Part shown: positions 17,841-38,046 of the stretch, piece by piece
How the letters are laid out: every line of letters starts with the position of its first letter
How positions within the stretch are numbered: position 1 is the first letter of the stretch
Assembly (NCBI GenBank): GCA_947626745.1
Contig: CANQTF010000012.1
Coordinates: forward strand, 1 to 64,000
DNA: 64,000 bases
From: an uncultured Lachnospiraceae bacterium
GTDB lineage: Bacteria; Bacillota; Clostridia; Lachnospirales; Lachnospiraceae
Direction of reading: 5' to 3'
The notes under the pieces: model-generated
What the model saw: only the letters and a program-made list of their open reading frames with translations
What the model was told of the DNA's origin: nothing
Databases searched by the model: none
Program-made: the position numbers and the translations under genes

Positions 17841-19124
17841 TTAAATGTCTGCTTTTCCCTTGATCCTTATCGCTAACAGAATCGCAAATATGAAAGCCAG
17901 CCCGCTGACCAGTATCGTATAAATCCAAGAAGCTCCGTCAATTCCCCATCGCCGTACAAATAAAGGCGACAGAAAAAAAGCCAAAACCGCTATCAGGAAA
18001 TATCCTCCTATCAAGTCCTGCTGGCATCGCAGTATCGTCAGCAAAATATTGATAAAACCAGACAGAGCCAACATGCCGCTTCCGACAAGCAGTATCAGCA
18101 ATTCTACTTTAAAAGATCGCAGATCCGTGTGATACAGCAACGATAAAAACGGTATACCAAGCAGATACGCACCGATCAAAACGCTCATTGTGATTGCAAA
18201 TATAAGAAATATTTGTCTGACCGCACGGCGAATAAATAATTCATGGCGTCCCTCATTCCAGTCTGCCGCAAGAGACGGCAGAATCGGCTGATAGAGAAAA
18301 CTATTCAGCAACCCGACAACCAGAATCGGCATAGAGATAAACCCGTAATATGCTTGCATCTCCTGTGGCAGATACGCATCAATCGCATATTTGGATGCAT
18401 TGGCAAGATAAAAAGAAAGAAAGCCCGCCGCAAACGGTCCCATGCAGTCCCACAATAGATTCATAGTTGTCCGAAAAGAAAAACCTGTCTTCTCCCACCG
18501 AAATATACTCATTACCGCGCGATTCATCAATACAGATGTGACAGTGCTAACCGCTACTGCCGCTATAGAAGACATCAAAAGATTACCGCCTAAAATCAAC
18601 AGTATACATAAACAGACAACACTCAGGAGTTGTCTTGTAAACGTAAGTTTTGCCCCTACATCCAATCTGCCCTGCTGCTGATAGAACGCGGTAAAGACAT
18701 CTTCCGCAGCATCTACCGTCCTCATCAGACAGATAATCAGCATGACCGCAATCTTATACGCATGATAGCCGTTGCACACATATCCATATATGACATACAA
18801 TACACTCAACACATTCATCGCAGCACAGGTCATCACGCGCGATCCCAAATAGTCTGAAAAACGGTAATGTCCAAGCGTATCCGTTACCTGATAGCTTCGC
18901 ATGCCATAACTCCCCACCGTAAAAAAGAGCGCTGCAGACGCATAGGCAATCGTAAAAATTCCCGTTTCTTCCATCCCGACAGTTCTAGTAAGCGTCATCA
19001 GGATCAGCACCGACTGCCCTGCGTTGAGCATTCCGGACAGTGTATTCCATATATAACTTTTTTTTGGCATATCCACCTCAGCACCAACCATAAATCTTTT
19101 CAGGCAGTCTGTCAGATTTCTCAT
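17841..19124 (-). CDS. Polysaccharide flippase (Wzx/MATE-type)
   Basis: The 427-aa integral membrane protein has about twelve TM segments and the layout of the polysaccharide-exporter superfamily (for example LSGMLNAGQSVLILMTLTRT near the N-terminus). Wzx-type flippases move undecaprenol-linked oligosaccharides to the outer face of the membrane. Alternative starts are ATGs at residues 12 and 19; none has a clearly better ribosome binding site, so the longest is given. It fits as the export step of the glycan cluster extending to 38046. Confidence 0.87.
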   Translation of the reverse strand: MRNLTDCLKRFMVGAEVDMPKKSYIWNTLSGMLNAGQSVLILMTLTRTVGMEETGIFTIAYASAALFFTVGSYGMRSYQVTDTLGHYRFSDYLGSRVMTCAAMNVLSVLYVIYGYVCNGYHAYKIAVMLIICLMRTVDAAEDVFTAFYQQQGRLDVGAKLTFTRQLLSVVCLCILLILGGNLLMSSIAAVAVSTVTSVLMNRAVMSIFRWEKTGFSFRTTMNLLWDCMGPFAAGFLSFYLANASKYAIDAYLPQEMQAYYGFISMPILVVGLLNSFLYQPILPSLAADWNEGRHELFIRRAVRQIFLIFAITMSVLIGAYLLGIPFLSLLYHTDLRSFKVELLILLVGSGMLALSGFINILLTILRCQQDLIGGYFLIAVLAFFLSPLFVRRWGIDGASWIYTILVSGLAFIFAILLAIRIKGKADI

Positions 19125-19175
19125 GTATTTCCACTGTTTCCTTCGCTAATATAACCTCAAAATCACTTATACACA

Positions 19176-19219
19176 AAATTCCCAACACAAGATCATCTCA
19201 TATCTCACATTGGGAATTT
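19176..19219. repeat. 10-bp inverted repeat between flippase and repeat-protein genes
   Basis: AAATTCCCAA (19176-19185) and TTGGGAATTT (19210-19219) are perfect inverted repeats with a 24-base gap, in the 148-base interval between the coiled-coil gene and the flippase gene. It could be a weak hairpin or an operator. No T-run follows on the minus strand, so a simple terminator is unlikely. Confidence 0.5.
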
Positions 19220-19272
19220 ATCGAATCACTGTTTTATTTTCTGCTTACATCCTCTGCGCTACTGCATCCTCT

Positions 19273-20196
19273 CTAGCCCTGCATTTGCTGCAGCGCCTCG
19301 CTGTGTCCGGAAACAACGCTTTTCAAAACAACAATATCTGCCGCCATCTCATCTATCTGCTCCGTTCGGTTTATATATCTCTCAAAAGTATCCAGATAGC
19401 ACGACTCAATCGTATTCAGTTTCGGTATCACGCCATTTTCAAGCTGCACGACTCTGACATAACGCATATCGTTTTCCAGATGATCCAAGCGTGGCATTAC
19501 GTTATTCTCCAACTGCTCTTCTCTCACGTAATGCATATCCTCTTCCAGATGATCTAAGCGCGGTATCATGTCATGCATGCCATTTTCCAGATGATCCAGT
19601 CGCGGCATCACATTATTCTCTAGCTGTTCTTCTCTCACGTAATGCATATCTTCTTCCAGATGATCTAAGCGCGGTATCATGTCATGCATGCCATTTTCCA
19701 GATGATCCAGCCGCGGCATTACATTATTCTCCAGCTGCTCTTCTCTCACGTAACGCATATCCTCTTCCAGATGATCCAGTCGCGGCATCACATTATTCTC
19801 CAGCTGTTCTTCTCTCACGTAATGCATATCTTCTTCCAGATGATCCAGTCGCGGCATTACGTTATTCTCCAACTGCTCTTCTCTCACGTAACGCATATCC
19901 TCTTCCAGATGATCCAGTCGCGGCATTACATTATTCTCTAGTTGCTCTTCTCTCACGTAACGCATATCCTCTTCCAGATGATCCAAGCGTGGTATTACGT
20001 TATTCTCTAATTGCTCTTCTCTCACGTAATGCATATCCTCTTCCAGATGATCCACTCTCGCATCCAATCCGTCCAGTCTGTCATAAATCGGCTGCAGCTT
20101 CTCATCAAACTTCTGCTCCAATTTCTCTTCCAGTTTCTCTTCCAATTTTTCATCCAGCAAATCCGATATTGCCGAAAGCATTTCTTGGTCTACCAT
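19273..20196 (-). CDS. Coiled-coil protein with tandem 23-residue repeats
   Basis: The 307-aa acidic protein begins with EKLEEKLEEKLEQKFDEKL (charged helix), then ten repeats from residue 48 to 259, and a unique C-terminus. The main unit is 23 residues, ldHLEEDMRYVREEQLENNV plus MPR. Two shortened 14-residue units (LDHLENGMHDMIPR) are interspersed. Repeat units are almost identical, showing recent expansion. No signal peptide or TM is seen, so it is cytoplasmic. AGGAGG precedes the start. Function unknown; a long parallel coiled coil such as a scaffold or length-setting protein is a guess. Related Lachnospiraceae proteins share the N-terminus but not this repeat. Confidence 0.8.
   Translation of the reverse strand: MVDQEMLSAISDLLDEKLEEKLEEKLEQKFDEKLQPIYDRLDGLDARVDHLEEDMHYVREEQLENNVIPRLDHLEEDMRYVREEQLENNVMPRLDHLEEDMRYVREEQLENNVMPRLDHLEEDMHYVREEQLENNVMPRLDHLEEDMRYVREEQLENNVMPRLDHLENGMHDMIPRLDHLEEDMHYVREEQLENNVMPRLDHLENGMHDMIPRLDHLEEDMHYVREEQLENNVMPRLDHLENDMRYVRVVQLENGVIPKLNTIESCYLDTFERYINRTEQIDEMAADIVVLKSVVSGHSEALQQMQG
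19420..20055 (-). repeat. Tandem repeat array, 69-bp and 42-bp units in a coding region
   Basis: Eight 69-bp units and two 42-bp units follow each other without gaps. All lengths are multiples of three, so gain or loss of a unit keeps the frame. Order: five long, one short, one long, one short, two long units (the last diverged). Near-identity of the units predicts length variation between strains. Confidence 0.9.
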
Positions 20197-20223
20197 CTTT
20201 TTCCTCCTTTGATGTGACGCCGA

Positions 20224-20542: not shown

Positions 20543-21721
20543 TCACCGAATCGCATTCAGAACATCCGTCGGACGTGCCGGGCGTACCAGTTCGAAACCG
20601 GTATCTTCCGAGTACAGATAAACACTAGGCAAATCTCTGCTGAGGAACAAGTACATAGATTCCGTCACGGAATATGCGCCAATATCATGGAAAACCAGCA
20701 CATCTCCAAGCCGTACATCTGTAAGAGGGAACTGCTTTAATAAAAGATCTCCCGTCGTACAAAGCGCACCGTAAACCATATATTTATCCGTTTCGCCGTT
20801 TCTATCCGGCATCTGCTCGACGCGAGGAGTGCGCATAGCCATAGTTTGACCATAATAATTTACATGATTGATTCCACCATTGACTATGCAAATCCTCCTT
20901 CCTTCAATTTCTTTGATATCCACCACAGAAGTGACATATGTACCGCATCCGGCCGCAATAAACCGCCCCATTTCCAATGTAATTTCCCCACGGAAACGCA
21001 TACCTTCCAAAATCCGTTTTAATTCCAAAAGCTGTGTTTCGCTTTCATCTTCCTCATTTGTAAAATAAGAGACATAAAGCCCAGGACCGTATTCAAGTTC
21101 CTGCACATAAAATCCATATTTTTCCATCAATTCAGTACAATATGCGTCCAGCATCTGCAATTCCTGCTCAATCTGTCTCAATTTCTTTTTCTGTGTTCCG
21201 GAAAACATCTGTATCCCTTTAATGCGTAAATATTTGCACGTTGTTTCTTTTCTGACAATTTCTTCCAACGTTTCCCGATCTACGCCAAACTGATTCCCGC
21301 CACAGTTTAAGCGAATCAAAATGGGCAGTTTTTTCCCTGTTTTTACGGCACATTCCTTCAGCAATTCAAATTGTGTACGAGACTCCACAGTATAAGTGAT
21401 TTTATCTCCGTACACTTCGACCGTCCGAATGGTATCCATCGGATTCTTATAAACGCCGGAAAGTACGACTTTACTCATATCCGCCCCATTCCGTTCACAA
21501 ATCCGAAATTCCCCAGGAGAGCAGACTTCAAATTTATCTACGATCCCGCTAAGCGCCTGCACCAGAAAAGGATTCGCTTTCATGGCATAACAGACTGCCG
21601 CTTTGTCTTCCAAGATATTTTGTATCTGCTGTATCCGGCTGCATAAAACATCCGTATCAAAAATGTAAGACGGCGTAACCTCATGATTTTCAAGAAAAGC
21701 TTTTAATATATCACGATCCAA
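20543..21721 (-). CDS. PLP-dependent decarboxylase, DAP/ornithine decarboxylase (fold III) type
   Basis: The 392-aa protein has the N-terminal alanine-racemase-like barrel with the PLP lysine in CYAMKAN (Lys48), CSPGEFRIC, NCGGNQFGVD and the C-terminal MVYGALCTTGDLL motif with the substrate-binding CTTGD, FHDIGAYSV. Family members decarboxylate diaminopimelate, ornithine/lysine or carrier-bound amino acids (BtrK in butirosin synthesis acts on glutamyl-carrier protein). Here it lies 34 bases downstream of an adenylating enzyme and near three carrier-protein genes, so a carrier-bound substrate is a reasonable inference. Gene order does not support a lysine-pathway role. Confidence 0.85.
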   Translation of the reverse strand: MDRDILKAFLENHEVTPSYIFDTDVLCSRIQQIQNILEDKAAVCYAMKANPFLVQALSGIVDKFEVCSPGEFRICERNGADMSKVVLSGVYKNPMDTIRTVEVYGDKITYTVESRTQFELLKECAVKTGKKLPILIRLNCGGNQFGVDRETLEEIVRKETTCKYLRIKGIQMFSGTQKKKLRQIEQELQMLDAYCTELMEKYGFYVQELEYGPGLYVSYFTNEEDESETQLLELKRILEGMRFRGEITLEMGRFIAAGCGTYVTSVVDIKEIEGRRICIVNGGINHVNYYGQTMAMRTPRVEQMPDRNGETDKYMVYGALCTTGDLLLKQFPLTDVRLGDVLVFHDIGAYSVTESMYLFLSRDLPSVYLYSEDTGFELVRPARPTDVLNAIR

Positions 21722-21755: not shown

Positions 21756-23276
21756 TTATTTGTTCCTATATAATTCCATCAATTGCTTTCTGTCAATTTT
21801 TCCGTTTTTGTTTAAAGGCATCTCTTCTACCCTGATCAAAACATTCGGGTGCATAAAATCCGGAAGTTTTCTTGAAATACGCTGAATCAAACCTTTTTCA
21901 TCCAGCCCTTCTCCCTGGTAAAATGAGACAATCTTGCCGCGCTCCTCGTCATAAATGGTACAGGCACGTACAATCTCTTCGTTTTCTCCGATAGCAATGT
22001 CGATCTCACTCAGCTCGATCCGATGTCCCATATGCTTGATCTGGAAGTCCTTCCTAGAATGGAAATACAACTCTCCGTTTTCGCCATATGCACCCAAATC
22101 ACCCGTGCGGTAAATCATCTCCAGATACTTTGTATTCAGTGGATTCTGCACAAACACTTTATCCGTCTGCTCCCAATTGTTATAATATCCAAGTGCCAGA
22201 GCTGTTCCGGAAACACAGATCTCACCCTGTTGTCCTGTGTCCGTCACCAGACAATCCTCTTCATCCAGCAGAAATACCTTTTCATTGGGAAAGGGACCCC
22301 CGATGGGCAGCGTCTCACTGTTATCAAATTCTCTGTCAATAATGTAATAAGTGCAGTTGCATGTGATCTCCGTCGGACCGTACAGATTAACATATATGGC
22401 ATTCGGGATATTACGCTTCCACTCGTTCAGATGCTTCACAGGCATTACCTCTCCGCTGAACATGATCTTGCGCAAAGCAGAAGGAACTTTATACCTGAAC
22501 GCTTTCAATGTGGTTAAAATACACAGCGCCGAGACAGCCCATATAATAACCGTAACCTGCCTGTCGCAAAGAAAATCCAGCAGTTTTTTCGGCAGTGAAA
22601 AATATGTCCTTGGAATAATCTGCATCGTTGCGCCCATTCTGAGGGTAGAATAGATGTCTTTTACAGAGACATCAAAGTCAAAAGGGGCCTGATTGCCAAT
22701 GACATCTTCCTCTCCTATCTCAAAAATCTCAGTAAAACACTCGATAAAATCAATCACCGACCTGTGGCTGACACAAACACCCTTTGGCACTCCTGTCGAA
22801 CCGGATGTAAACATAACATACAGAGGATCGATATCCAACGTCAGCCGCCGAATCTCAGCCAAGGAATCCTCGTCAATCTCCGCAGCGCTTATTTCCTCAA
22901 AAAGCAGGCATTTCCCCGAAAAATCGATTTTTTCTACGCATTCCTTCTGCTCTTCCTCCCTGCAGATCAGAACCTCAGCCTCGAGGGTAGCCAGAATCTG
23001 GTGCAGACGAAACGCAGGCTGCTTGACGTCTAAAACCGTATAGCCACAGCCGGCATAAACGATACCCATGAACGCGGCGATGGCCTCCACACTTTTTTCC
23101 ATAAACACAGGGATGATATCCCCCTTCTTCACGGCCGGCGCCAGAAAACTGCCGATCCGCTTAGCCCTGTCAAGCAGTTCGCGGTATGTATAACTTTTAT
23201 CCTTATCCGCAACGGCTATCTTGTCCGGGAATCTATCCGCGCTGTTTTCCAACCATTGAATGATATTATTCTGCAT
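21756..23276 (-). CDS. Amino acid adenylation enzyme (NRPS A-domain/DltA-like)
   Basis: The 506-aa stand-alone AMP-binding enzyme has the phosphate-binding loop FTSGSTGVPKG (156-166), LYGPTEITC, YRTGDLG and the catalytic C-terminal lysine in NKNGKIDR (Lys493). Size and motifs fit DltA-like aminoacyl-carrier-protein ligases and single-domain NRPS adenylation enzymes. It would activate an amino or other carboxylic acid with ATP and load it on the phosphopantetheine arm of a carrier, most likely the DltC-like one at 29322-29549. No DltB or DltD partner is present, so it is not a standard D-alanylation operon. Confidence 0.88.
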   Translation of the reverse strand: MQNNIIQWLENSADRFPDKIAVADKDKSYTYRELLDRAKRIGSFLAPAVKKGDIIPVFMEKSVEAIAAFMGIVYAGCGYTVLDVKQPAFRLHQILATLEAEVLICREEEQKECVEKIDFSGKCLLFEEISAAEIDEDSLAEIRRLTLDIDPLYVMFTSGSTGVPKGVCVSHRSVIDFIECFTEIFEIGEEDVIGNQAPFDFDVSVKDIYSTLRMGATMQIIPRTYFSLPKKLLDFLCDRQVTVIIWAVSALCILTTLKAFRYKVPSALRKIMFSGEVMPVKHLNEWKRNIPNAIYVNLYGPTEITCNCTYYIIDREFDNSETLPIGGPFPNEKVFLLDEEDCLVTDTGQQGEICVSGTALALGYYNNWEQTDKVFVQNPLNTKYLEMIYRTGDLGAYGENGELYFHSRKDFQIKHMGHRIELSEIDIAIGENEEIVRACTIYDEERGKIVSFYQGEGLDEKGLIQRISRKLPDFMHPNVLIRVEEMPLNKNGKIDRKQLMELYRNK

Positions 23277-23308: not shown

Positions 23309-23905
23309 TTATATCTCAAATTTCTTCAGCAGCCCACCCTCTCCATGGCCTGGGCAGACATACAATTCTCCGGACAGGCCCGCGAGCCATGGCTTTGTGA
23401 TCTCCTCATACTTCCGGCGGTTTCCACCCGGCAGTTTGGTGATGATCCTGTCTTCCTTCAGCAGCGTATCTCCCGTAAACAGCAATTTTCTATCCATCAC
23501 GATACAGATGCTTCCCGGCGAGTGACCGGGCGTCTCCCGCATTTCCAATATATGTCCCTGCCATGTAAAGGTATCGTGACCCTCGAAGGTGTCCGTAGCC
23601 TCGCAGGTATAGGGCTGTGTCTTTTGGCTGTACTTCTGCTGGTGTCTGCCTATCATCAACGCGTCATAATATCTGGACATATTCTTCCTGTCGTCCGTCA
23701 GGCACGCCGCGCACGCCGCAGAGCAGACCACCCTACAGGGATATCGCTGTTTCAGCCAGTTGACCCCGGAGATGTGATCGTAATGCTCATGGGTGAGCAG
23801 GATAGTAAGCTGCTTTACCCTCATGTCATCCAATACGGCAAGGGCGCGTTCCGCAACGCAGGGATCCACAGCAAGCGCCTGATTGCCTTCGATAAGAAGG
23901 TACAT
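23309..23905 (-). CDS. MBL-fold metal hydrolase, probably truncated at its 5' end
   Basis: The 198-aa protein has the zinc motif THEHYDHISG, then ETPGHSPGSIC, FTGDTL and CPGHGEG, the glyoxalase-II-like subfamily. The only ATG (23905) lacks a ribosome binding site. The frame stays open upstream to about 23985 and encodes FPFLPIDSRM, which looks like the missing first beta strand. Upstream sequence belongs to a remnant of another gene (MBOAT), so the gene has probably lost its own start in a rearrangement. It may be translated from the internal ATG, or by readthrough from the upstream gene, or be inactive. Role unknown; thioester hydrolysis is possible given its neighbours. Confidence 0.7.
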   Translation of the reverse strand: MYLLIEGNQALAVDPCVAERALAVLDDMRVKQLTILLTHEHYDHISGVNWLKQRYPCRVVCSAACAACLTDDRKNMSRYYDALMIGRHQQKYSQKTQPYTCEATDTFEGHDTFTWQGHILEMRETPGHSPGSICIVMDRKLLFTGDTLLKEDRIITKLPGGNRRKYEEITKPWLAGLSGELYVCPGHGEGGLLKKFEI

Positions 23906-23941
23906 TCTGGAGTCGATGGGGAGGAATGGGAAGATTTCTAA

Positions 23942-24103
23942 TAAGGCCGCAAAGGAAAGTAGATAGCGTCGTAAACAGCAGATAAAAAATCAACTTCCAT
24001 CCCGCGCACAAATAAAAGAAATAGCTAGAAATAAGCAATACAATCCATTGGTACTTCTTTGGTATACAAAAATAAATACAGGCAACCGCCGTGATAAAGA
24101 AAA
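23942..24103 (-). pseudogene. Remnant of an MBOAT O-acyltransferase (N-terminal part)
   Basis: On the minus strand a frame without a start reads FFITAVACIYFCIPKKY, QWIVLLISSYFFYLCAGW, KLIFYLLFTTLSTFLCGL. This is the characteristic first two TM segments of MBOAT proteins (DltB/AlgI type). Its first dozen residues and everything after the second TM are missing; it runs directly into the MBL gene in another frame. It marks one side of a deletion. Confidence 0.7.
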
Positions 24104-24316
24104 ATGTTTCTTGGCATAGATAGACAGCCGGAGAATGCGGTCGCGCTGGTCGATAATATGAATCAGGAAATTACATATGGTGGACTATGTGAGATGTGTT
24201 CAAAGGATAAGGATGCGATTCCGAAACATTCTGTGGTTTTTATTTTGTGCAGAAATACGGTTGGCGCAGTTGCAAGTTACATATCATGTCTTGAAAATGG
24301 AATAATCCCGCTTTTA
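24104..24316 (+). pseudogene. Remnant of an acyl-activating (AMP-binding) enzyme, N-terminal part
   Basis: Plus-strand frame starting at ATG 24104 reads RQPENAVALVDN, ITYGGLCEMCSKDK, VVFILCRNTVGAVASYISC, LENGIIPLLL. This matches the first 70 residues of AMP-dependent acyl synthetases of the kind that often accompany KASIII and carrier proteins in glycan clusters. The similarity stops exactly where the stop codon of the opposing KASIII gene begins; the rest of the enzyme is gone. Confidence 0.7.
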
Positions 24317-25357
24317 TTATTTATCCATTATGTCATCATAATAAGAATTTACATGAATAATCTCCATAACAGCTTCCTGCCTAATATACAAATCGCTCAC
24401 TCCCCAAGACAACCCTATTCCGAATCCAACAGCCAAAATATGCAGATTTGTTCTTTTCACTTTCGTCCACAAGGTATCTGCTATTGTAAGTGGGATTGAG
24501 GAACTGTTCGTATTTCCATATCTGCTTATGACAATCGGCACTTTTTCTTTATCAAATTTACATTTTTTTATGATGCGCTGCACGATTGATGTATTAGCCT
24601 GATGTAAGGCAATCAAATCAAAATCCTCGTTTTGATATCTCGTCTTATCCATAAATTCTTCAATAGATTTCGGAATCTCTATCGTTGAAAACGCAAAGAC
24701 ATCAATACCTTCCATCTCCACATAAGCATTCTCACTTTCAGGATGCCTGTATCCGTTGCCTTCCATAAAAATAGTTTTGTATCGACTCCCATCCGAATTC
24801 AGTAGAAAATGCATGCTGTTAGCAACAGAATCTTTTTCAAGTGCAATGGCAGCCCCCACGTCTCCAAACAATAAATTAGTGGTATTATTCGGCCTGACTG
24901 CCCGACTACTCATATCGCCGCACATCAAAATCGCTCTTTCAATATCCATATTTTCCATAAGAGAACCCAACACAGCCATTCCGTATATGAAGCCAGAACA
25001 TCCCAGATTAATATCCAACGTCATACAGGACATGGGGAGAGAGAGCCTCTTTTGCAATATGCTTGTCGTAGATGGTCTTCCATAATCAAACGCATGTGTC
25101 GTCAGAACAATAGCACCGATACTTTTCCGTTCCCATTGCAATTTTTCTATCAACCTATCTGCTGCCGAGCAGCACAAATCGGAAATAGTCTGTTTTCCTT
25201 TCACACGATATGTTTGTTCCACTCCCGTCTGCTCTTTCACTCTAGTCAGAGTTTCCCAATCAAACTGTTTTATATGTTCTTCCGTTCGAATACAGTTATC
25301 AGGCAATGCACATACAATTCCCTTTATTTCAACTTTTTTAATCTGCCCAAAGGCCAT
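24317..25357 (-). CDS. 3-oxoacyl-ACP synthase III-like condensing enzyme (A)
   Basis: The 346-aa thiolase-fold enzyme has the KASIII triad: Cys120 in INLGCSGFIYG, His252 in ALHQANTSIV and Asn282 in YGNTNSSSIPL, plus GIGLSWG near the end. Such enzymes condense an acyl-CoA with malonyl-ACP, or transfer acyl groups in natural-product pathways. It is 30-40 percent like the second KASIII gene by eye and clearly AT-richer. It lacks the usual fabD/fabF neighbours, so it belongs to a dedicated pathway rather than housekeeping fatty acid synthesis. Confidence 0.9.
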   Translation of the reverse strand: MAFGQIKKVEIKGIVCALPDNCIRTEEHIKQFDWETLTRVKEQTGVEQTYRVKGKQTISDLCCSAADRLIEKLQWERKSIGAIVLTTHAFDYGRPSTTSILQKRLSLPMSCMTLDINLGCSGFIYGMAVLGSLMENMDIERAILMCGDMSSRAVRPNNTTNLLFGDVGAAIALEKDSVANSMHFLLNSDGSRYKTIFMEGNGYRHPESENAYVEMEGIDVFAFSTIEIPKSIEEFMDKTRYQNEDFDLIALHQANTSIVQRIIKKCKFDKEKVPIVISRYGNTNSSSIPLTIADTLWTKVKRTNLHILAVGFGIGLSWGVSDLYIRQEAVMEIIHVNSYYDDIMDK

Positions 25358-25423: not shown

Positions 25424-26296
25424 TTATCTTCTCTCCAAAAACCACTCTTCCATGACCCGGCCTTCCCAAATCCAACCCGATTTTTTGTGATATTTTACAG
25501 ACTCTTTATTTCCTCGCATCACCCAACCGTATTCTTCACCAATATTATTCTCCTCTGCATATTTCATCGCCGAATAGTTGAACAACATCACAATTCCATA
25601 TGTCTTTTGATACTCTTTCTTGATCGCATACCACCCTCCTATGCGTCCGTTTTCTGCATCAAAATAATGCGCGGCGCAGAGATTCCCATTCAGATCCAAA
25701 ACACCTTCCAAGCGCCCATCCCGGATCGCCTCCCCGTACTCTTCCGGAGAATGATAAGACAACTGATAGTATGGTATACAATCTATGTTCTTCTGAAATT
25801 CCAATAGCTGCTCCACCTCATTTGGCAAAAGCGTTCGAAATGTCAGATGACTTTCGTCCAACAGCCTTAAGATATGTTTCACTAAAGGCTCAATTTTTTT
25901 CTTATTTGCAGTCCGATCCTCAACAATATAGTCCATAGTATCCTTTAGGATAAAACCGACCTCTTCCAGCCAACTTGCCATTTCCGATTCTTTAGCAGTC
26001 CTTTCATTCCTGTATAACAGTTGCGTCAAAAGCAACTTGTCTTTTTTTTCAATTTTCTTATCTCTCTTTGTTCCACCTGAAAGGTCTGCGTGGAAATAAC
26101 ATCGATAATGACTCTCCTCATCGGAATAAAAAACAATTCCGTTTTCCAGTTTTTCATAGTAAAGCCGCCCTAAATCTATATATCTGCGTATCTCGTCAAG
26201 AAACATGTAGGAATTGGTGACAAGTCTCCTCCCGCATTTCTCTTTGGTTTCGGCAAGCAGTTCTTTATACCTGTCCAGACTCTCTACTTTATCCAT
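25424..26296 (-). CDS. GNAT-like acyltransferase
   Basis: The 290-aa protein has a C-terminal half that resembles a GNAT fold: beta strands around LEGVLDLNGNLCAAHYF and GRIGGWYAIKKEYQKTYGIV, then NKESVKYHKKSGWIWEGRVM, the usual last helix-strand. The N-terminal half is a second domain of unclear type. No TM is seen. Its place between two KASIII genes suggests it transfers an acyl group from a carrier protein or CoA to an acceptor such as an aminosugar. This is inference; sequence support for GNAT is moderate. AT-rich like the preceding gene. Confidence 0.65.
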   Translation of the reverse strand: MDKVESLDRYKELLAETKEKCGRRLVTNSYMFLDEIRRYIDLGRLYYEKLENGIVFYSDEESHYRCYFHADLSGGTKRDKKIEKKDKLLLTQLLYRNERTAKESEMASWLEEVGFILKDTMDYIVEDRTANKKKIEPLVKHILRLLDESHLTFRTLLPNEVEQLLEFQKNIDCIPYYQLSYHSPEEYGEAIRDGRLEGVLDLNGNLCAAHYFDAENGRIGGWYAIKKEYQKTYGIVMLFNYSAMKYAEENNIGEEYGWVMRGNKESVKYHKKSGWIWEGRVMEEWFLERR

Positions 26297-27409: not shown

Positions 27410-27438
27410 GATATATTCCTCCGTTTCTATTTGATCCG

Positions 27439-28197: not shown

Positions 28198-28288
28198 CCG
28201 CCAACTCCCTTCCCTTATATCAACGAAAATCTTAACTATCACGAAACGTCCGGCAAAGGAAGGGCTGTTGTTCTGACAGACTCCTTAA

Positions 28289-29321: not shown

Positions 29322-29549
29322 TCATTCATCCAACAATTTTTGGATCAGGCTGTAGATCGCTTCCACAGAGTTGAAATTTTCCTCTACGATCTCTTCCACG
29401 GGGATGTCGATTTCATACGCCTCGTTCAATTCAGCCACCAGCGTGATGACATCAAAGGAATCCAGCACGCCGCTGTCGATCAGGTCTGTTTTCCCCTCGT
29501 ACACGACGCCCGGTTTTACCTCCTGCAGAATCTTCATCAGTTTTTCCAT
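29322..29549 (-). CDS. Carrier protein 2, DltC-like
   Basis: The 75-aa protein has LIDSGVLDSFDVITLV with attachment Ser31. The ILQEVKPG start and LDSFD site resemble D-alanyl carrier proteins and peptidyl carriers, unlike carriers 1 and 3. It is therefore the best candidate partner for the adenylating enzyme at 21756-23276. Confidence 0.88.
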   Translation of the reverse strand: MEKLMKILQEVKPGVVYEGKTDLIDSGVLDSFDVITLVAELNEAYEIDIPVEEIVEENFNSVEAIYSLIQKLLDE

Positions 29550-31233: not shown

Positions 31234-31452
31234 CTACTGTAAAGCATTCAGGATATCCTCTACGGTTATGAAGGAATTGATCCTCTCTCCGGTCAGCTTC
31301 ACGCCAAATTCATCTTCCGCCATCACCATAAGCGACAGTTTCGTCATAGAATCATAGCCGGGGATCTCGTCCAGCCGCATCGCCGGCGACAGCCCTCTGT
31401 CGTCGGCTTCCAGAACTTCTTCCAACAATGCTATTTTTTTCTCTTCAGACAC
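31234..31452 (-). CDS. Acyl carrier protein 3
   Basis: The 72-aa protein has the attachment motif IPGYDSMTKL with Ser35. It is a paralogue of carrier 1 by length and start. It lies 18 bases after the GT2-PglD gene and 19 before the carboxyltransferase gene, within one operon. Confidence 0.88.
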   Translation of the reverse strand: MSEEKKIALLEEVLEADDRGLSPAMRLDEIPGYDSMTKLSLMVMAEDEFGVKLTGERINSFITVEDILNALQ

Positions 31453-31469: not shown

Positions 31470-33071
31470 CTACAACACGATACGATGCGCCGGATTACCC
31501 AGTACATGTGTGCCCGCTTTCACCTTCCAGAACACCATACTCCCCGGAGCGACCGTTGCCTTATCCTCTATCTTCATGTGTGCGCTGAGAAACGAACAGG
31601 CGCCCACCATGACTTCCTCTCCGATCTCACAGTATCCGGAAACCTGCGCACGCGGCATCAGGACCGTGTAATCCCCTGTTTTCACATGGTGGCCCAGCGC
31701 CGGCCCGTTTAAGAAACAGCCTTTCCCGAGACTCACATTCACGGACACATTGCTCAGCCTGGTAATCACGCATCCGTTTCCTACGGAGGACGTCGGCGGT
31801 ATCACTACCGCAGGATGGATCAGTGTTTCAAAGCGCACCCCTTCCGCCTCCATCTCCTCTTGGATCCTTCGCCTTGCCGCAGGCTGGCCAACCGTACAGA
31901 CACAGTACACTTCTTCCTTATGCTCCAGCAGCCAACCGGTATCGCCGAGAAGCGGATAGCCGTTGACGGACACACCCTCCTGATAATAGGCGGCATCCAC
32001 CACAAACCCTACCAAGCGATAAGTCTGGTGTGCTGCGTTGATCTGCTCCACCAGATAAGCCGTCTCGGCCCCCATCCCACCCGCTCCGTAGAGGACGAGC
32101 TGTTTTAAACACTCCGGATTCTGCTCTTTAGGCCTCTCCTCCGGCGCCTCGCCGCTGTCAACGATATAACGCGGAAGCCCTTGTTCCAGATATAGGATCC
32201 GCCAGACATATTCGCCCAGAATCACGAACGCAGCAAAAAAGAGGGCGGCGAACAAACACAGCAGCATACACAGAAGACCGATCCCCGTGCCGAAATCATC
32301 TCCGGACGCGGCGCAGAACGCCAAGCGGATGAGAAAAGAAACAGTCATAACGCCGCTTAGGGCTGCGGGAATCAAAAATATCCGCAGCGGAAACCGAGAA
32401 TAGTTCACAAAAACGCCCGACATTACATGAAATCTTTTTCTCCATGTATATCCTGATTTCCCGATTTTTCTGGCCTTTCTCTCGTACTCAACCGTTTTGA
32501 AACGGTATCCCGGCCACAGGACGCTAAGCTGCATGAAAGCGTTCGGCACATCGATTTGTCTGTATGTCTCGGCGACCTCTCTGTCCATAAGCCAGAAATC
32601 AAATCCGCCCGCCGGATAGTTCCGGTCAATCAGCTTGCGGATCAGCTTATGTGCCAGCTTGGAGGCCGCCTTCGAGAGTCCTCTTTCCTGACGGCTCTTT
32701 CTGGTGCCTATGACTAGCTTATACCCCTGCTCCCAATATCGCAGCATGTCCGCAAATAACTCGAACGGATCCTGCAGATCTGCGGAGATCACGCCGATCA
32801 CATCGCCCTTTGCAATGGCTACGCCGCACTTTACAGCGCTTCCCTGCCCGAAATTTCTGGTAAATCTGGCCGTGCGGATCCGTTCCGGATATTTCCGCCT
32901 GTATTCCTCCATTACCTGCCAGGAATGATCCGGAGAGCCGTCGCATACCAAGATCAATTCCGTATCGTAATCCGGAAACAGCTTCAGATGCTCTAGCATA
33001 TAAGGCAGGGTAACGGGAAGGTTTTTTTCATTTCCATATACCGGTATGACAACAGAGAATTTCTTTTTCAT
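31470..33071 (-). CDS. GT2 glycosyltransferase fused to PglD-like sugar acyltransferase
   Basis: Residues 1 to about 310 are a GT2 enzyme with SVVIPVYGNEKNLPVTLPYM, SADLQDP (DxD-like) and two C-terminal TM segments (about 225-300), as in polyprenyl-phosphate sugar transferases. From residue 323 the protein continues as a PglD/NeuD-type acyltransferase: Rossmann-like VLYGAGGMGAETAY, then a left-handed beta helix (ETLIHPAVVIPPTSSVGNG, catalytic-type GHH near 460). PglD enzymes acylate 4-amino sugars. The fusion couples sugar transfer and aminosugar acylation at the membrane, which fits the DegT aminotransferase upstream. Confidence 0.9.
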   Translation of the reverse strand: MKKKFSVVIPVYGNEKNLPVTLPYMLEHLKLFPDYDTELILVCDGSPDHSWQVMEEYRRKYPERIRTARFTRNFGQGSAVKCGVAIAKGDVIGVISADLQDPFELFADMLRYWEQGYKLVIGTRKSRQERGLSKAASKLAHKLIRKLIDRNYPAGGFDFWLMDREVAETYRQIDVPNAFMQLSVLWPGYRFKTVEYERKARKIGKSGYTWRKRFHVMSGVFVNYSRFPLRIFLIPAALSGVMTVSFLIRLAFCAASGDDFGTGIGLLCMLLCLFAALFFAAFVILGEYVWRILYLEQGLPRYIVDSGEAPEERPKEQNPECLKQLVLYGAGGMGAETAYLVEQINAAHQTYRLVGFVVDAAYYQEGVSVNGYPLLGDTGWLLEHKEEVYCVCTVGQPAARRRIQEEMEAEGVRFETLIHPAVVIPPTSSVGNGCVITRLSNVSVNVSLGKGCFLNGPALGHHVKTGDYTVLMPRAQVSGYCEIGEEVMVGACSFLSAHMKIEDKATVAPGSMVFWKVKAGTHVLGNPAHRIVL

Positions 33072-33091: not shown

Positions 33092-34561
33092 CTATCCGGC
33101 CAGAAATCTGTAGAACACACTCTCTCCGGTATCCACGGATTCATAAACGTTTCCCAGTACCCTGTCCGTTCCGACCGACTCCGACAGCGTCTGCTGTCCC
33201 GAAGAAGTATAGATACGCTCCGTTTCACTGATCGTCCTTTTGATCTCATGCATCGGCGTGACGGCTCCCGCCGTCAGCACAGCCAGAAGAAACAGGAAAG
33301 AAAGCCATTTTCTCCCCAGCAGAGAACGTTCCAGCGCATCCGTCACATAGAGATACAGGAGGATGAGGGCCGGAATACTTGCCCGCATACAGAAATTGTC
33401 TCCGCCGTACACATTCAGGACGGGACACAGGCACAACCAAGCCAGCAGCACATACAGAAGGGGATTTCTCTTCTGATAGCAATACACCGCCGCAAAAAAA
33501 CCACCCACTTCCACCAAAAGGGAAACCAGCCAGATCAGCCAGCCGCCGTTTCGCAGTTCTATCAATACGCCGTTCCCTTCGCCTCCCGGCGCCCGCAGCA
33601 GAAAAAGGCAGGACAGGATACCCACCACGCCGCCGCAGAGTACATTCTCCACGGTGATGCTGTCCCTCGCCAACCGCTTCCACCACGAAGCACGAAAACG
33701 CTTTTCACCGTAATCTCCTGCAAACATACGATAAAGACAGATCGGCACCATCCCGATGACCGGCAGGATGCAGCTTATGGCGGATACCGCCAAAAGCAGG
33801 GCAATACAGCGGTTGTCTCTCTGCAGACACAAAAGCACCGTGACCAGCCAAGCCGGAATGGCCTGATTAAAGACCCAAAAGAGCTGCGCCGTTGTACTGG
33901 TAAACTGAAACTGTGTCCACCATTCCAGATGCTGTGTAGGCTCAATCTCCGATAAGGAGATGCCGGACAGATACCAACCGACAATATCCGCACCGCTGAA
34001 GAAAATAAATACAAGCAACGGCCATATCTCGATCTTTCCTCTCAGGATGCATATCCCGTAATAAAAGAGTAAAATGCCGATATATGCCCACAGGATCTGA
34101 AAATAATACCCGCTCTGCAGTCCGAACAATTTTCCGGCCAAGGCCGGAATCAGCCAGAAACCCATGTAATAAGAATATCCTCTCGTCTGCGCTATGCCGT
34201 CTACCGTCACAGTCCGAATGACCGGCCATTTCTCTTCTACCAACATTTCAAACATGGCGTTACGCCAAACATGATCTTCATTCTGAAACGCTATCCCGCC
34301 GATGCCTGAAACGGCAACCCAGAAAAGCAAAATCAACGAAATCCAACACAGCCTCTGCCGTTCTTCGGCGCTCCACCGGCGACCGGTCCTTTCCGGCATT
34401 TTGCGAAGCATCCCACAGAACCCGCCTCCCGTACACACAACCGCGGGAACCGCATACAGCGGTTTGAGCCAGCCCAATGCAAAGACAAAAAACGGAAGAA
34501 AAAGATATAGATAAGCCGCTGCAAAATACCAATTTTTATCTGCTGTCTTCTTTACGTTCAT
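33092..34561 (-). CDS. Polytopic membrane protein, probable glycan polymerase or GT-C enzyme
   Basis: The 489-aa protein has about ten to eleven TM segments and large loops. No sure family motif is visible; size and position fit a GT-C glycosyltransferase or a Wzy-type polymerase, with the C-terminal soluble tail (ISETERIYTSSGQQ) outside. The downstream GT2-PglD gene follows after 20 bases and the upstream DegT gene ends 3 bases earlier, so the genes are cotranscribed. Confidence 0.7.
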   Translation of the reverse strand: MNVKKTADKNWYFAAAYLYLFLPFFVFALGWLKPLYAVPAVVCTGGGFCGMLRKMPERTGRRWSAEERQRLCWISLILLFWVAVSGIGGIAFQNEDHVWRNAMFEMLVEEKWPVIRTVTVDGIAQTRGYSYYMGFWLIPALAGKLFGLQSGYYFQILWAYIGILLFYYGICILRGKIEIWPLLVFIFFSGADIVGWYLSGISLSEIEPTQHLEWWTQFQFTSTTAQLFWVFNQAIPAWLVTVLLCLQRDNRCIALLLAVSAISCILPVIGMVPICLYRMFAGDYGEKRFRASWWKRLARDSITVENVLCGGVVGILSCLFLLRAPGGEGNGVLIELRNGGWLIWLVSLLVEVGGFFAAVYCYQKRNPLLYVLLAWLCLCPVLNVYGGDNFCMRASIPALILLYLYVTDALERSLLGRKWLSFLFLLAVLTAGAVTPMHEIKRTISETERIYTSSGQQTLSESVGTDRVLGNVYESVDTGESVFYRFLAG

Positions 34562-34564
34562 ATC

Positions 34565-35683
34565 TCACCGTCGAATCTGTTCAAGGATAATATCGCAGAT
34601 CCTGTCTACCTCCTCACAGGTAATATCCGAATAACATGGCAGCGTCAGGATACGTTCGGAGACATATTTTGCCACCGGAACATCCGCTCGAAGCCCAAGA
34701 TCCTTGCAGCAGCCAAAATCACTGGTCAACGGATAAAAATATTTTCTTGCAAAGACGGAATGCCGCTTTAACGCATCGGCAATTCCGTCCCTGCCGATCC
34801 CGAGTTTCTCCTCTTCAAAAAGCACCGGGAAATACGTATAATTATATTTTATGTTCTCCTTCTCGCGGCAGAGACGCACGCCTTCTATTCCTTCCAGTCG
34901 TTTGCGGTAGCGCCTTACCGCCAGCTTCCGATTCCCGATATATTCTTCCAGATGCCGCAGGTTGCAAAGCCCCATCGCCGCGTGCATTTCCGACATCTTG
35001 GCGTTGGTTCCGATATACGGATATTCTTCCGTCCCCGTCACCTGTCCGAACTGCCGCATACTCGACAAGAACTCATCCAGCGCGTCGTTCGCAAAGGTGA
35101 GACACCCGCCCTCCACCGTATGGAATACCTTAGTCGCATTGAAGCTGAAAGCGGACATATCACCAAACCGTGCCACGCTGATCCCCTGCCAGGTCTCCCC
35201 AAACGCATGTGCCGCATCATACAAGACCTTCAGACCGCGCCGGTCTGCGATCTCCTGAATCCTCTCCACATCACAGATATTACCGTAAACGTGTACGGGA
35301 AGAATCGCACTCGTCCTGTCGTTGATCAACCCTTCCAGCTTATCGCAGTCAATGGTATAATCATCCTCTCTAATATCGCAGAATACCGGAACCAGACCGC
35401 ATCTCAAAATAGCCTGTGTGGTGGAGGCGAAAGTAAACGGCGTAGTAATCACCTCGCCCGTTAAACCCATGGCTGTCAGTCCCATCTCGAGCGACAGGTG
35501 CCCGTTTGCCATCAGAGACACATGGGCTACATCCAGATAGGCTTCCAGCTCCTCCTGAAGCTGCCTGTGTTTAGGCCCGGTATGTGTCAGGATCCTGCTC
35601 TCCCAAATGTCCTCCAGCATTTTTCTATATTCTTCCAGCGGAGGCATGGATGGTCTTGCGACGAGGATCGGTCTTTCATTCAT
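34565..35683 (-). CDS. DegT/DnrJ/EryC1/StrS sugar aminotransferase
   Basis: The PLP enzyme (372 aa from the ATG at 35683) has MANGHLSLEMGLTAMG, VLYDAAHAFGE, the PLP-lysine region SFNATKVFHTVEGG (Lys) and KMSEMHAAMGL. It would add an amino group to a nucleotide-linked keto-sugar. Start: the ATG at 35683 overlaps the stop of the SH3 gene (ATGAATGA) and has AAGGATGG upstream; in-frame ATGs at 35695 and 35776 lack that. Its product would be the natural acceptor for the PglD-like and GNAT-like acyltransferases. Confidence 0.92.
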   Translation of the reverse strand: MNERPILVARPSMPPLEEYRKMLEDIWESRILTHTGPKHRQLQEELEAYLDVAHVSLMANGHLSLEMGLTAMGLTGEVITTPFTFASTTQAILRCGLVPVFCDIREDDYTIDCDKLEGLINDRTSAILPVHVYGNICDVERIQEIADRRGLKVLYDAAHAFGETWQGISVARFGDMSAFSFNATKVFHTVEGGCLTFANDALDEFLSSMRQFGQVTGTEEYPYIGTNAKMSEMHAAMGLCNLRHLEEYIGNRKLAVRRYRKRLEGIEGVRLCREKENIKYNYTYFPVLFEEEKLGIGRDGIADALKRHSVFARKYFYPLTSDFGCCKDLGLRADVPVAKYVSERILTLPCYSDITCEEVDRICDIILEQIRR

Positions 35684-36218
35684 CTCTGCTTCCATCCTTG
35701 TCAGAAACGCTTTCGCCGTCCTGCAGTTCTTCCTCTTTTTTCGTATTCCTGAATGTGGAGACGACGCCGACCCCAAAGATTGCCAGCACCAACACAGCGC
35801 CCACGATCCCCCAGATCAAAGAGGTCCGCTTCTGTTTCGCGGCCAGTTCAGCCTCTTCTATGAGCCGCTGCTCTTCCGCCGCCACATCGCCCATCTCCTG
35901 CTCCAGATTCGCCAATTCCTCCTCGGCATATACTTCAAGCATGTCACTCTCCACATAGCCTTCCAGTCCTTGGTAGAGCACCCTGCTCCATGTGCCGTCG
36001 TCACTTTCCACAATAACGGCTGTTCCGGCCTGAAGTCTGCCGATCACAGCGGAATCAGCAGCCGCCTCTTCCTTTATTTCCGTGTCTGCAGTCACCTCAT
36101 ACAGAATACCTACCATATTCCCATCTGCGGCATGCACCTGCGCTCCTGCCGTACCAATCATGCACAGGGCGGCCGCGGCAAATCCGAGTCCTTTCAGTCT
36201 CTTTATCAACTTTTCCAT
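35676..36218 (-). CDS. Secreted SH3-domain protein with C-terminal membrane anchor
   Basis: The 180-aa protein has a signal peptide (residues 1 to about 30, ending AQVHA), a bacterial SH3 domain (about 33-90, ILYEVTADTEIKEEAAADS ... GYVESDMLEVYA), a charged helix and one TM segment near residues 133-155, then a short acidic tail. Extracellular SH3b domains bind cell-wall peptides or glycans. The ATG at 36218 is chosen for its AGGGAG site. It overlaps the aminotransferase start by 8 bases, so the genes are coupled. Confidence 0.82.
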   Translation of the reverse strand: MEKLIKRLKGLGFAAAALCMIGTAGAQVHAADGNMVGILYEVTADTEIKEEAAADSAVIGRLQAGTAVIVESDDGTWSRVLYQGLEGYVESDMLEVYAEEELANLEQEMGDVAAEEQRLIEEAELAAKQKRTSLIWGIVGAVLVLAIFGVGVVSTFRNTKKEEELQDGESVSDKDGSRDE

Positions 36219-36234
36219 CCCGTTCTCCCTCTTC

Positions 36235-38046
36235 CTAATCATTATATAGAATCGTGAAATGCCCGTAGGTATCTTCATGCGCATACCGATCGGCCCATTT
36301 CACGGCATATTCATCATCAAAAGCAAAAATCAGAATATCATCCGCCGATATCTCTCCGTCACAATCTCCCGGCTCCGTCCTGCCTTTCATGACCTGTATA
36401 TCCATATCCCTGCCCATAAATTGCAGGATACCGATATAGGCCGGTCGGCAGCTGTCCATATAAATCACATCTCGATCCTCCCCGTCGCAAAGCGAGACGA
36501 TCCTGTCGGCCACCCGCGTGTCACGAAACGCCGCATTCTTAAAGGGCATCAGATATAAATTATCCGCGTGGACCGCCAACGCCAATTCCGCCACTGCCAG
36601 TAAAGTCATCAGATAATGTCTTCCTGTGTGGCTGCGGCAGAGAAAGAGCAGCAGCATCACCGACAACGTGAGAAGTTCGCCAAAGAACCATGCTCCCGCA
36701 TAGAACCGGCTCAGCGTATATCCTTCCGGCCTGTACAGATAACTGATTCCCACCATGAAATATCCGAGATACTTCTCCGTCCCCGTGTGCGTGATCTGCC
36801 GTACGACCAAAAAGAGCACCGCCGCGTGCAGTATTGCTATGATACCCGTCACAGCCATTGCCCGTCTCCGCTCCGCCTTCCACATCGCAGCAAAGCCCAC
36901 GGTCATCACAAAGGGAACGACCAGTTCGCCGTATCTGCCGTAAGTGTAATCATCCACCTCCCCTATTTGCAAAAGATGGATGGAAGCAATGATAAGCTGC
37001 GTCACAACAGTCAGAATAAGAAAACCTGCCATCTCCGCCCGCGCCGTTCCATCTGCATTCGCCGCAGCACTGCCTCCTGTCTCTCCAAGCGTCTGCTCTG
37101 TTTTCCGCAGCTTTGCGTCTGATCTGCAAAAGAGCGGCGATACATATCGTATCAGGGCATAAAACCCCCAATAAAACAGCCCGAACGTCGCCAATCCCAG
37201 ATATAGTATTCCGCCAAGCAACGTGACGATCAGGTCATAAAACCCTTTGCCCGTACAGACATAGCCGAGTTTGGCAAATTGCCCGCTGTAGTCGTTATCC
37301 GCCGCAAGCGCAGGATCGATGCTTCCGTATACATGGGAGAAAGTATAGTCTTTCATATATACGGCTATAGACATCGACAGCACTGTGATCCCCAGAATCA
37401 CAGAAAAATGCCATTTTTTCTCTCCCCGTAAAATATGCATTGCCAGCACACCCGCCGCAGAAACCAAAATGCCCGCCGTTCGCATATGAACACTGTAGGC
37501 ATACAGCATCGTCAGCAGAAGAAGAATCAGCACAGACAACTTTTCCTCTGTCAGATACCGGTACAGCAGATATCCGGTTACGGTGTACAGAAACAGCAAC
37601 AGCGTCTCTGTCATGGTCATCTGTGCATAGAACAGATTCCATGGAACCGAGATCGTGAGCGCCGCAAACAACGATACCGGCACAGCGCGGTCAGGTATCA
37701 TCTTCCTCACCGTACAGACCAGAAAAAAATACGCAGCAACGAGTAATGCATAATTAATACTCACGGCGATCCTGTACGCCAGAACCGCGTCTCTGCACAG
37801 CCGGAAGATCGGAAACAGGATCAGCCCGTATCCGTAAGAAAAGTACGGTCCCAATGAGGTGATGTCCGACCAGTCATATCCGGCTGTCCATGCCGCACAG
37901 GACCAGTAGGCAAACTCATCCGGGAAGATCAGGAAACCGTATATACTTCCTATCTCCAACATGCCGAAGGAAACCACAGCCGCCAGTACCGGAATGCTCT
38001 GCCTCTGATCCTCTCTTCCCATCGTCCATCCGTTTCCCGTCTTCAT
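36235..38046 (-). CDS. Polytopic GT-C-type glycosyltransferase
   Basis: The 603-aa membrane protein has about 11-12 TM segments and, in its first extracytoplasmic loop, FPDEFAYW (41-48), where the acidic pair Asp43-Glu44 is placed as in ArnT/PMT-type GT-C enzymes that use polyprenyl-phosphate sugars. An alternative start is the ATG at residue 9. It opens the minus-strand glycan cluster; a G9 tract and hairpin lie 60 bases upstream. Confidence 0.8.
   Translation of the reverse strand: MKTGNGWTMGREDQRQSIPVLAAVVSFGMLEIGSIYGFLIFPDEFAYWSCAAWTAGYDWSDITSLGPYFSYGYGLILFPIFRLCRDAVLAYRIAVSINYALLVAAYFFLVCTVRKMIPDRAVPVSLFAALTISVPWNLFYAQMTMTETLLLFLYTVTGYLLYRYLTEEKLSVLILLLLTMLYAYSVHMRTAGILVSAAGVLAMHILRGEKKWHFSVILGITVLSMSIAVYMKDYTFSHVYGSIDPALAADNDYSGQFAKLGYVCTGKGFYDLIVTLLGGILYLGLATFGLFYWGFYALIRYVSPLFCRSDAKLRKTEQTLGETGGSAAANADGTARAEMAGFLILTVVTQLIIASIHLLQIGEVDDYTYGRYGELVVPFVMTVGFAAMWKAERRRAMAVTGIIAILHAAVLFLVVRQITHTGTEKYLGYFMVGISYLYRPEGYTLSRFYAGAWFFGELLTLSVMLLLFLCRSHTGRHYLMTLLAVAELALAVHADNLYLMPFKNAAFRDTRVADRIVSLCDGEDRDVIYMDSCRPAYIGILQFMGRDMDIQVMKGRTEPGDCDGEISADDILIFAFDDEYAVKWADRYAHEDTYGHFTILYND

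Follow-up and report, generated by a model that had tools for sequence, protein, structure and literature searches.

In the biosynthesis of butirosin (BtrK/BtrI), a carrier-bound amino acid is decarboxylated by an enzyme dependent on pyridoxal phosphate (PLP), as it is in the VinN/VinL/VinO system. The latter, known from macrolactam antibiotics (vicenistatin), is described in the available part of its source as placing an amino acid on a stand-alone carrier, where PLP-dependent decarboxylation follows (PMC11284099). In the viosamine island of Pseudomonas syringae, which comprises vioA, vioB, vioS, vioR, acp, vioT and vioM, a 3-hydroxybutyryl group is put on an amino sugar (available text of PMC3927599), and the wfpC-wfpG genes of Flavobacterium psychrophilum are connected with a 3,5-dihydroxyhexanoyl group on Qui2NAc4N, the acyl group having been seen by nuclear magnetic resonance and the roles of two ketoacyl synthases (KAS), a reductase, an acyl carrier protein (ACP) and a PglD-type acyltransferase being predictions in the part of the paper available (PMC6519341). 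The subject of this work is a gene cluster at positions 17841-38046 of a 64,000-nucleotide stretch of DNA from an uncultured Lachnospiraceae bacterium (contig CANQTF010000012.1; the whole stretch is hereafter called the window). By analogy with the systems above, the cluster is a composite of two known kinds, an acyl part of the vio/wfp type and an aminoacyl part of the Vin type, with a carboxyltransferase of its own, and in the sample examined only the window joins both modules.

With a probability of about 0.5, as judged from the sequences, the cluster encodes one composite pathway, by which a surface sugar would receive a custom N-acyl group. The best reading is that a short hydroxy-acyl chain, possibly primed by an amino acid, would N-acylate a 4-amino-6-deoxysugar, which would pass via a lipid phosphate to transferases of the GT-C type. 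All the enzymes named below are encoded on the minus strand, with motifs intact wherever they were checked, and the observation made in an earlier note on this DNA, that the gene set forms a single minus-strand run with the Cys-His-Asn residues of the condensing enzymes intact, holds. The metallo-beta-lactamase-fold hydrolase was missing from the list in that note. The cluster consists of:

36235-38046, minus strand: 603-aa polytopic protein, probable GT-C-type glycosyltransferase (transfer of a lipid-phosphate-linked sugar on the outside), from an invariant-residue motif
34565-35776, minus strand: sugar 4-aminotransferase similar to DegT, DesI and VioA (PF01041)
33092-34561, minus strand: 489-aa membrane glycosyltransferase with a predicted GT-C fold, from a model
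31470-33071, minus strand: fusion of a GT2 polyprenyl-phosphate sugar transferase with a VioB/PglD sugar N-acyltransferase (PF00535, PF17836, Hexapep)
31234-31452, minus strand: carrier protein 1, KAS type (PF00550; DSM motif at residue 34)
29652-31214, minus strand: MmdA/PccB-like carboxyltransferase, presumed to supply malonyl (or methylmalonyl) units (PF01039)
29322-29549, minus strand: carrier protein 2, DltC-like, presumed to serve the adenylating enzyme and decarboxylase (PRK05087)
29067-29285, minus strand: carrier protein 3, KAS type (PF00550)
28289-29041, minus strand: FabG-like short-chain dehydrogenase/reductase (SDR) 1, presumed 3-ketoacyl-carrier reductase (PF13561; GASSGIG, YAASK)
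27439-28242, minus strand: FabG-like SDR 2, presumed 3-ketoacyl-carrier reductase (PF13561; GASSGIG, YCASK)
26315-27445, minus strand: KASIII-A (PF08541/PF08545; C132, H278, N308)
25424-26296, minus strand: acyltransferase resembling a tandem GNAT, placed with the adenylating-enzyme module, from a model and fold search
24317-25357, minus strand: KASIII-B (PF08541/PF08545; Cys-His-Asn motifs)
23309-23905, minus strand: metallo-beta-lactamase-fold hydrolase, presumed thioesterase (PF00753, 66 bits)
21756-23276, minus strand: stand-alone, DltA-like amino-acid adenylating enzyme, hereafter A-enzyme (TIGR01733; pocket code DVKIMSLCNK)
20543-21721, minus strand: PLP fold-III decarboxylase with BtrK-like motifs, presumed to act on a carrier-bound amino acid (PF00278/PF02784)
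17841-19124, minus strand: MOP-type flippase (PF01943, 34.1 bits)

The viosamine island and the window share an aminotransferase, a VioB-type N-acyltransferase, a KASIII, a FabG-like reductase and an ACP for what is, in the available text of PMC3927599, one N-acylated amino sugar; the KASIII, reductase and ACP of the window appear to be dedicated ones, and RmlB is present elsewhere in the genome. The window differs in having two KAS, two SDRs and three carriers, as well as its own carboxyltransferase, A-enzyme, decarboxylase, GNAT and hydrolase, and in the fusion of the acyltransferase to a GT2 protein of the lipid-phosphate type. The likeness to the wfp genes is one of composition alone (two KAS, reductase, ACP and PglD); a single reductase and a single ACP are named there, the sugar is UDP-linked and belongs to a Wzy-dependent O-antigen, and the part of PMC6519341 available mentions neither an A-enzyme nor a decarboxylase. 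The VinN/VinL/VinO system is matched by an A-enzyme with a stand-alone carrier and by a PLP fold-III decarboxylase whose motifs are not those of LysA, although the destination would here be a surface sugar, unlike in the Vin and Btr systems. The likeness to Dlt systems lies in the DltA-like enzyme and the DltC-like carrier, which as Dlt proteins both score below NCBIfam cut-offs, and the difference in two pocket residues (Met to Lys and Cys to Ser) and in the added decarboxylase. Among the cluster open reading frames (ORFs) given to Pfam there was no VioM-type methyltransferase, no counterpart of VinM (a second A-enzyme) or VinK (PF00698), and no DltB-type MBOAT. The opinion of the earlier note that the set resembles no known system is only partly right, since the acyl part has the vio/wfp composition and the A-enzyme, decarboxylase and carrier follow the way of VinN, VinO and VinL.

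The acyl core and its sugar partners

The source genome has a FabH on contig C13 that groups with other FabH proteins in the KAS tree (support 100/99), and both KASIII-A and KASIII-B fall outside that clade, grouping with KAS of other such clusters (14 rows, support 93/89, not a starred fork). KASIII-A lies inside a five-row set (98/96), and the place of KASIII-B within the glycan-cluster group is not settled by the tree. A reading of the window KAS as FabH was rejected on the separate FabH of C13 and its different clade. The earlier note had allowed for their being the only FabH and FabG of the genome, which is contradicted by that FabH and by the presence of two carboxyltransferases besides the one in the window.

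KASIII-A has a match at E<=9.2e-53 in 9 of 391 other genomes of the order. At E<=1e-40 there are matches in 84 other genomes, for the nine best of which long loci were taken; the 75 weaker ones were treated as FabH-like and entered the tree only as a sample. At least one of these, G098, proved to hold a cluster KAS when it was found again through the GNAT, so that cluster KAS genes are under-counted. A scan of genome_contigs with KASIII-A rendered one relative, in Paenibacillus endophyticus (L036), and two further loci, L122 and L123, were reached through the GNAT. The resulting 12 KAS loci, in 10 of which KAS itself was the selection criterion, all contain an SDR and a KAS-type carrier. The hydrolase is present in 6, PglD in 4, an MmdA-like carboxyltransferase in 3, a close DegT in 2, an A-enzyme in 5, a DltC-like carrier in 6, the GNAT in 4 (E<=1e-8) and an MBOAT in 1; the decarboxylase is present in none of the 12. 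Other carboxyltransferase-like ORFs, of weaker similarity, in L122 and L123 (that of L123 matching ACCA and Carboxyl_trans of Pfam, and thus AccA/AccD-like), and a malonyl-transferase-like gene (PF00698) in L038, fit malonyl chemistry.

The sugar genes around the KAS core vary, with an NDP-hexose 2,3-dehydratase in L042 and a NeuB-type enzyme in L043, and L037 encodes an O-antigen-ligase family protein (Wzy_C) and a LytR-CpsA-Psr protein. With such varying genes around a constant set, the acyl core appears to be a portable unit that belongs mostly to surface-glycan clusters. The acyl core was also observed in Paenibacillaceae: in L036 two KAS, an ACP and an SDR have upstream of them genes for an ABC ATPase and an S-layer-homology protein, two of the three flanking ORFs given to Pfam, the third being without a family. 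A distinct clade of KAS (100/100) with the catalytic motif GC[CV]G comprises L042:4516-5583, L043:11647-12717, L045:14372-15436, L122:10611-11681 and L123:9390-10460, at loci that also hold a DltC-like carrier, an A-enzyme and a GNAT. An Antibiotic_NAT protein (PF02522) was confirmed by Pfam in L045 and L122, and L123:14362-16863, inside a KAS/A-enzyme locus, is a LuxE-LuxC fusion (acyl-protein synthetase and acyl-CoA reductase) that hints at an aldehyde product.

As regards the remaining acyl machinery, the carboxyltransferase scores 595.1 bits with PF01039 and 692.1 bits with TIGR01117 (below the cut-off of 998.8), its closest solved structure is 1vrg (PCC beta), and its homologues in L038, L040 and L041 are 49-58% identical. 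One biotin-carrier domain was found in the source genome, close to the carboxyltransferase on C1; this genome is 83.5% complete, so that absences from it carry little weight. SDR 2 is 48% identical to homologues in L037, L038 and L039. The hydrolase lacks an ATG, GTG or TTG where its homologues begin, and the in-frame codons upstream look homologous by eye for about 14 residues, after which a low-GC gap follows (23906-24316).

On the sugar side, the DegT protein (PF01041, 305.8 bits) has PLP_DesI as its best NCBIfam model (265.3 bits, below the cut-off of 650) and 2po3, which we take to be DesI, as its closest solved structure (E 1.9e-54). It is 49% identical to its homologue in L037 and 56% to that in L042, and by its sequence it is probably a 4-aminotransferase of the VioA/DesI type; a Met about 28 residues past the TTG is more likely to be its true start. 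The 4-keto substrate could come from RmlB, encoded on C16 (483.2 bits, over the cut-off of 365.1). In the fusion protein, VioB (7txp, E 6.2e-23) is the closest solved relative of the PglD domain, which scores 149.3 bits with the NeuD/PglB/VioB model TIGR03570 (cut-off 160.8, not reached) and whose GH-motif His is also found in the relatives from L038, L039 and L042, with AH in L037; the closest solved relatives of the GT2 domain are sll0501 and ArnC.

Of the two polytopic membrane proteins pointed out earlier, the 489-aa one models as a GT-C protein, an assignment carried by a second look with VIA at the predicted model, as Foldseek by itself found nothing at E<=0.001. For the 603-aa protein, which has no Pfam match and has relatives in 17 of 280 family genomes (source genome counted), the GT-C assignment is suggested by a motif: residues D43, E44, E147, H187, R189 and R371 are invariant, and we take their pattern, DE...E...HxR, to be GT-C-like. 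Neither protein, nor the flippase (threshold E<=1e-15), occurs in any of the 12 KAS loci, and the flippase is tied to the pathway by position only. With 2po3, VioB, sll0501/ArnC and the GT-C model as its supports, the proposal of the earlier note, a carrier-built acyl or aminoacyl group for a lipid-linked 4-amino sugar, is still the best reading.

The aminoacyl module and Dlt-like operons

The A-enzyme scores 331.9 bits with TIGR01733 (cut-off 317.4), and carrier 2 scores 39.4 bits with PRK05087 (DltC), below the cut-off of 68. In the A-enzyme, Lys and Ser replace the Met and Cys of three solved DltA proteins; the cysteine, Cys-269, lines the D-alanine pocket of DltA (available text of PMC4176424). 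On these two residues D-alanine was rejected as the substrate. Among solved structures the pocket stretch best matches an L-prolyl carrier ligase, in which Leu stands in place of the Lys. The decarboxylase matches two LysA structures (2p3e, 2.3e-26; 3n2b, 1.4e-23) and BtrK (2j66, 2.1e-22), which is an L-glutamyl-carrier decarboxylase according to its PDB title. It carries the substrate motifs LCTxxD and GTQ, as BtrK does, where the two aligned LysA proteins have CE[ST]xD and G-S-Q, and on these motifs the LysA reading was rejected, although some LysA proteins score slightly above BtrK.

Relatives of the decarboxylase (E<=1e-35) are found in 47 of the 391 other genomes of the order, and the 48 loci analysed cover all 47. 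A DltA-like A-enzyme is present in 43 of them, a DltC-like carrier in 44, a DltB-like MBOAT in 32 and an SDR in 1; KAS, hydrolase, carboxyltransferase and PglD are each present in 0 of 48. Most of these loci thus resemble Dlt operons to which a decarboxylase has been added. Operons of this kind with a BtrK-like decarboxylase were observed in L073-L092 and L164-L191 (e.g. L074:8076-12589), and they may predict an omega-amino acid in place of D-alanine on a surface polymer. Searches of an open-access library brought up no paper that describes such a decarboxylase in a Dlt operon, or the gene set of the window in Lachnospiraceae, and a literature search for aminobutanoyl sugars gave no result.

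The pocket could be read in 44 A-enzymes of the decarboxylase loci, 33 of which have Lys and 10 Arg at the position of the DltA Met; the remaining one (code DLMVLCTVAK) lies in L178 beside a second, Arg-type enzyme. Among the close decarboxylase-linked A-enzymes the residue is basic in 43 of 43, from 42 loci (L087 gives two). In L174 the contig ends within the A-enzyme gene, which makes it unreadable, and no A-enzyme was detected at E<=1e-5 in L175, L186 and L191. An A-enzyme from neither the decarboxylase nor the KAS loci, that of L124, has Leu at this position. A basic residue at this place suggests pairing with a second carboxylate, and so the loading of Asp or Glu, in sequences that are related by descent. 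Ten of the decarboxylase-linked enzymes, with the codes IARGCSQASK or IARCLSQASK (e.g. L089:11034-12539), have Arg at 239 and a residue other than the usual Asp at 235; as judged from these codes, they are a putative second specificity class.

The GNAT assignment, made in the earlier note and supported now by a predicted model and a fold search, is one that Pfam and NCBIfam did not give. Five loci (L042, L043, L045, L122 and L123) combine a KAS with an A-enzyme and a DltC-like carrier, and all five also hold a GNAT of the window type, that of L043 being of weak kinship. A hidden Markov model from two rows (window and L046) detects the copy of L042 at 7e-6, that of L043 at 0.22 and that of L045 at 0.35; the last is linked through L122 and L123, and that of L043 mainly by position. 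By genome, GNAT relatives share a locus with an A-enzyme in G108, G188 (weak kinship), G158, G180, G129, G098 and G184. A search with the single sequence rendered matches in 2 of 299 family genomes (source genome included) and none in viral_contigs, and a five-row alignment rendered 30 of 299, of which 8 are near full length (5 being the model's own rows) and the other 22 are short or weak GNAT matches. The GNAT alone was rejected as a locus finder. Chemistry that combines an aminoacyl carrier with KAS has parallels in the five loci above, and its decarboxylated version was seen, among the sampled loci, only in the window. The earlier note had considered that the genes might fall into unrelated operons. 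This holds in part: each module is conserved by itself, but the whole set is not, since none of the 12 KAS loci contains the decarboxylase and none of the 48 decarboxylase loci contains a KAS.

Predicted pathway and alternatives

From the gene content, the motifs, the modelled folds of two proteins and the conservation of each module we infer substrates, an order of steps and the tie between the aminoacyl and the KAS module as follows. The dTDP-4-keto-6-deoxyglucose formed through RmlB, encoded elsewhere, would be aminated by the DesI/VioA-like DegT protein. The A-enzyme would load a dicarboxylic amino acid, Asp or Glu by our guess, on the DltC-like carrier, where the BtrK-like enzyme would decarboxylate it to a beta-alanyl or 4-aminobutyryl thioester. 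With malonyl units from the carboxyltransferase, one or both KASIII would join a starter to an extender unit on the other carriers, after which 3-keto groups would be reduced to hydroxyls by the SDRs, so that a 3-hydroxy- or 3,5-dihydroxy-acyl chain could arise from acetyl-CoA or from the aminoacyl carrier. Capping or transfer of the amino-acyl group is a possible task of the GNAT, and the metallo-hydrolase may clear stalled thioesters. The VioB/PglD domain would then place the acyl group on the 4-amino sugar, the fused GT2 domain would move the sugar to undecaprenyl phosphate, and after flipping the GT-C enzymes would transfer it to an outer polymer or protein. A more specific form of this pathway is put forward only tentatively: a beta-alanyl or 4-aminobutyryl group on the DltC-like carrier would prime a two-step, type II polyketide-like extension, and the resulting omega-amino, hydroxylated chain would be N-linked to a surface deoxy-sugar, with the Dlt-type module acting as starter supply.

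Several observations weigh against a single composite pathway. The decarboxylase and a KAS are joined in none of the relatives (0/12 and 0/48), so that their tie rests on one locus. The five A-enzymes of KAS loci have Phe, Tyr or Gln in the pocket and none is basic (0/5), and with these different codes their substrate likely differs; L046 has the window's own pocket code, with Lys, but its 20 kb contain no decarboxylase; and the only A-enzymes of the decarboxylase loci L091 and L189 are distant ones (25% identity, under the threshold), with Tyr at this position. The hydrolase, without a usual start codon, may be decaying. Moreover, the GC content at third codon positions (GC3) is 0.38-0.53 in the GNAT, KASIII-B, A-enzyme and decarboxylase genes and 0.56-0.71 in the upstream genes, with 0.66 in the hydrolase, inside the low block; the difference fits a block acquired later, and these low-GC3 genes may have been inserted later and may serve a purpose of their own.

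It could be the case, with somewhat lower probability than the composite pathway, that two decorations are made in parallel, one an acetyl-primed 3-hydroxy- or 3,5-dihydroxy-acyl group of the vio/wfp type from KAS, SDR and ACP for the amino sugar, and the other an omega-aminoacyl group from A-enzyme, decarboxylase and carrier 2, which the GNAT or an MBOAT from another contig would move onto another position or polymer, as in Dlt-like operons. The decarboxylase module occurs without KAS in 48 of 48 loci and with an MBOAT in 32, the three MBOATs of the source genome are on other contigs (C13, C3 and C1 only), and the GC3 break divides the blocks as such a split would predict. Against this, carrier 2 belongs to the upstream block, where its neighbours are the carboxyltransferase and carrier 3, and KASIII-B and the GNAT lie inside the low-GC3 block of the A-enzyme; five KAS loci pair an A-enzyme and a DltC-like carrier with KAS, and an MBOAT is missing from the Pfam-searched ORFs of the cluster itself.

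That the product is a small secondary metabolite, amino-acid-primed and type II polyketide-like, made beside the glycan and not on it, is improbable. The VinN/VinL/VinO precedent comes from macrolactam antibiotics (available part of PMC11284099) and L123 carries the LuxE-LuxC fusion, but in the window the VioB/PglD domain is fused to a sugar transferase of the lipid-phosphate type, the same run contains DegT and a GT-C-like protein, and relatives hold PglD (4/12) or, in L037, Wzy_C and LytR-CpsA-Psr. A role in general fatty-acid synthesis, to which homology to FabH, FabG and ACP might point, deserves hardly any weight, given the genome's own FabH on C13 in the FabH clade and the lack of a KASIII-A match at E<=1e-40 in G060, the sole congener searched.

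Neighbouring sequences and meaning for the family

The intergenic gaps from DegT to KASIII-B range from -7 to 102 bp; the gap after KASIII-B, of 411 bp, and that after the decarboxylase, of 346 bp, are larger. A terminator-like hairpin lies at 38093-38112, just upstream of the first gene, that of the 603-aa protein; it is the only one used of the site calls. Terminator-like sites are more numerous than in shuffled sequences (26 vs 15.2) and promoter-like ones less so (20 vs 26.0). Two further ORFs lie within the cluster:

19273-20196: repeat ORF between decarboxylase and flippase
35676-36284: SH3-domain ORF (202 aa) with a membrane segment

The first is rich in Leu and Glu and coiled-coil-like by eye, with 69-bp (23-residue) tandem repeats (5.2 copies, 92% match) and a 111-bp form, and it looks recently expanded. 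The second (bacterial SH3) lies between the 603-aa gene and DegT and overlaps both gene ends as called. Outside the cluster, 39414-41561 encodes a 715-aa probable lipoprotein with a stretch similar to the cobaltochelatase CbiK (NF047852, 182 bits, cut-off of 400 not reached).

If the composite pathway is true, small assembly lines built on carrier proteins would make custom acyl groups for the surface glycans of this family, as in Pseudomonas and Flavobacterium, and the parts of such lines would swap between systems. The Dlt-like operons with a decarboxylase predict, moreover, that on a surface polymer of such bacteria an omega-amino acid may take the place of D-alanine. Both points are relevant to the charge of the cell surface and may be relevant to recognition by the immune system.

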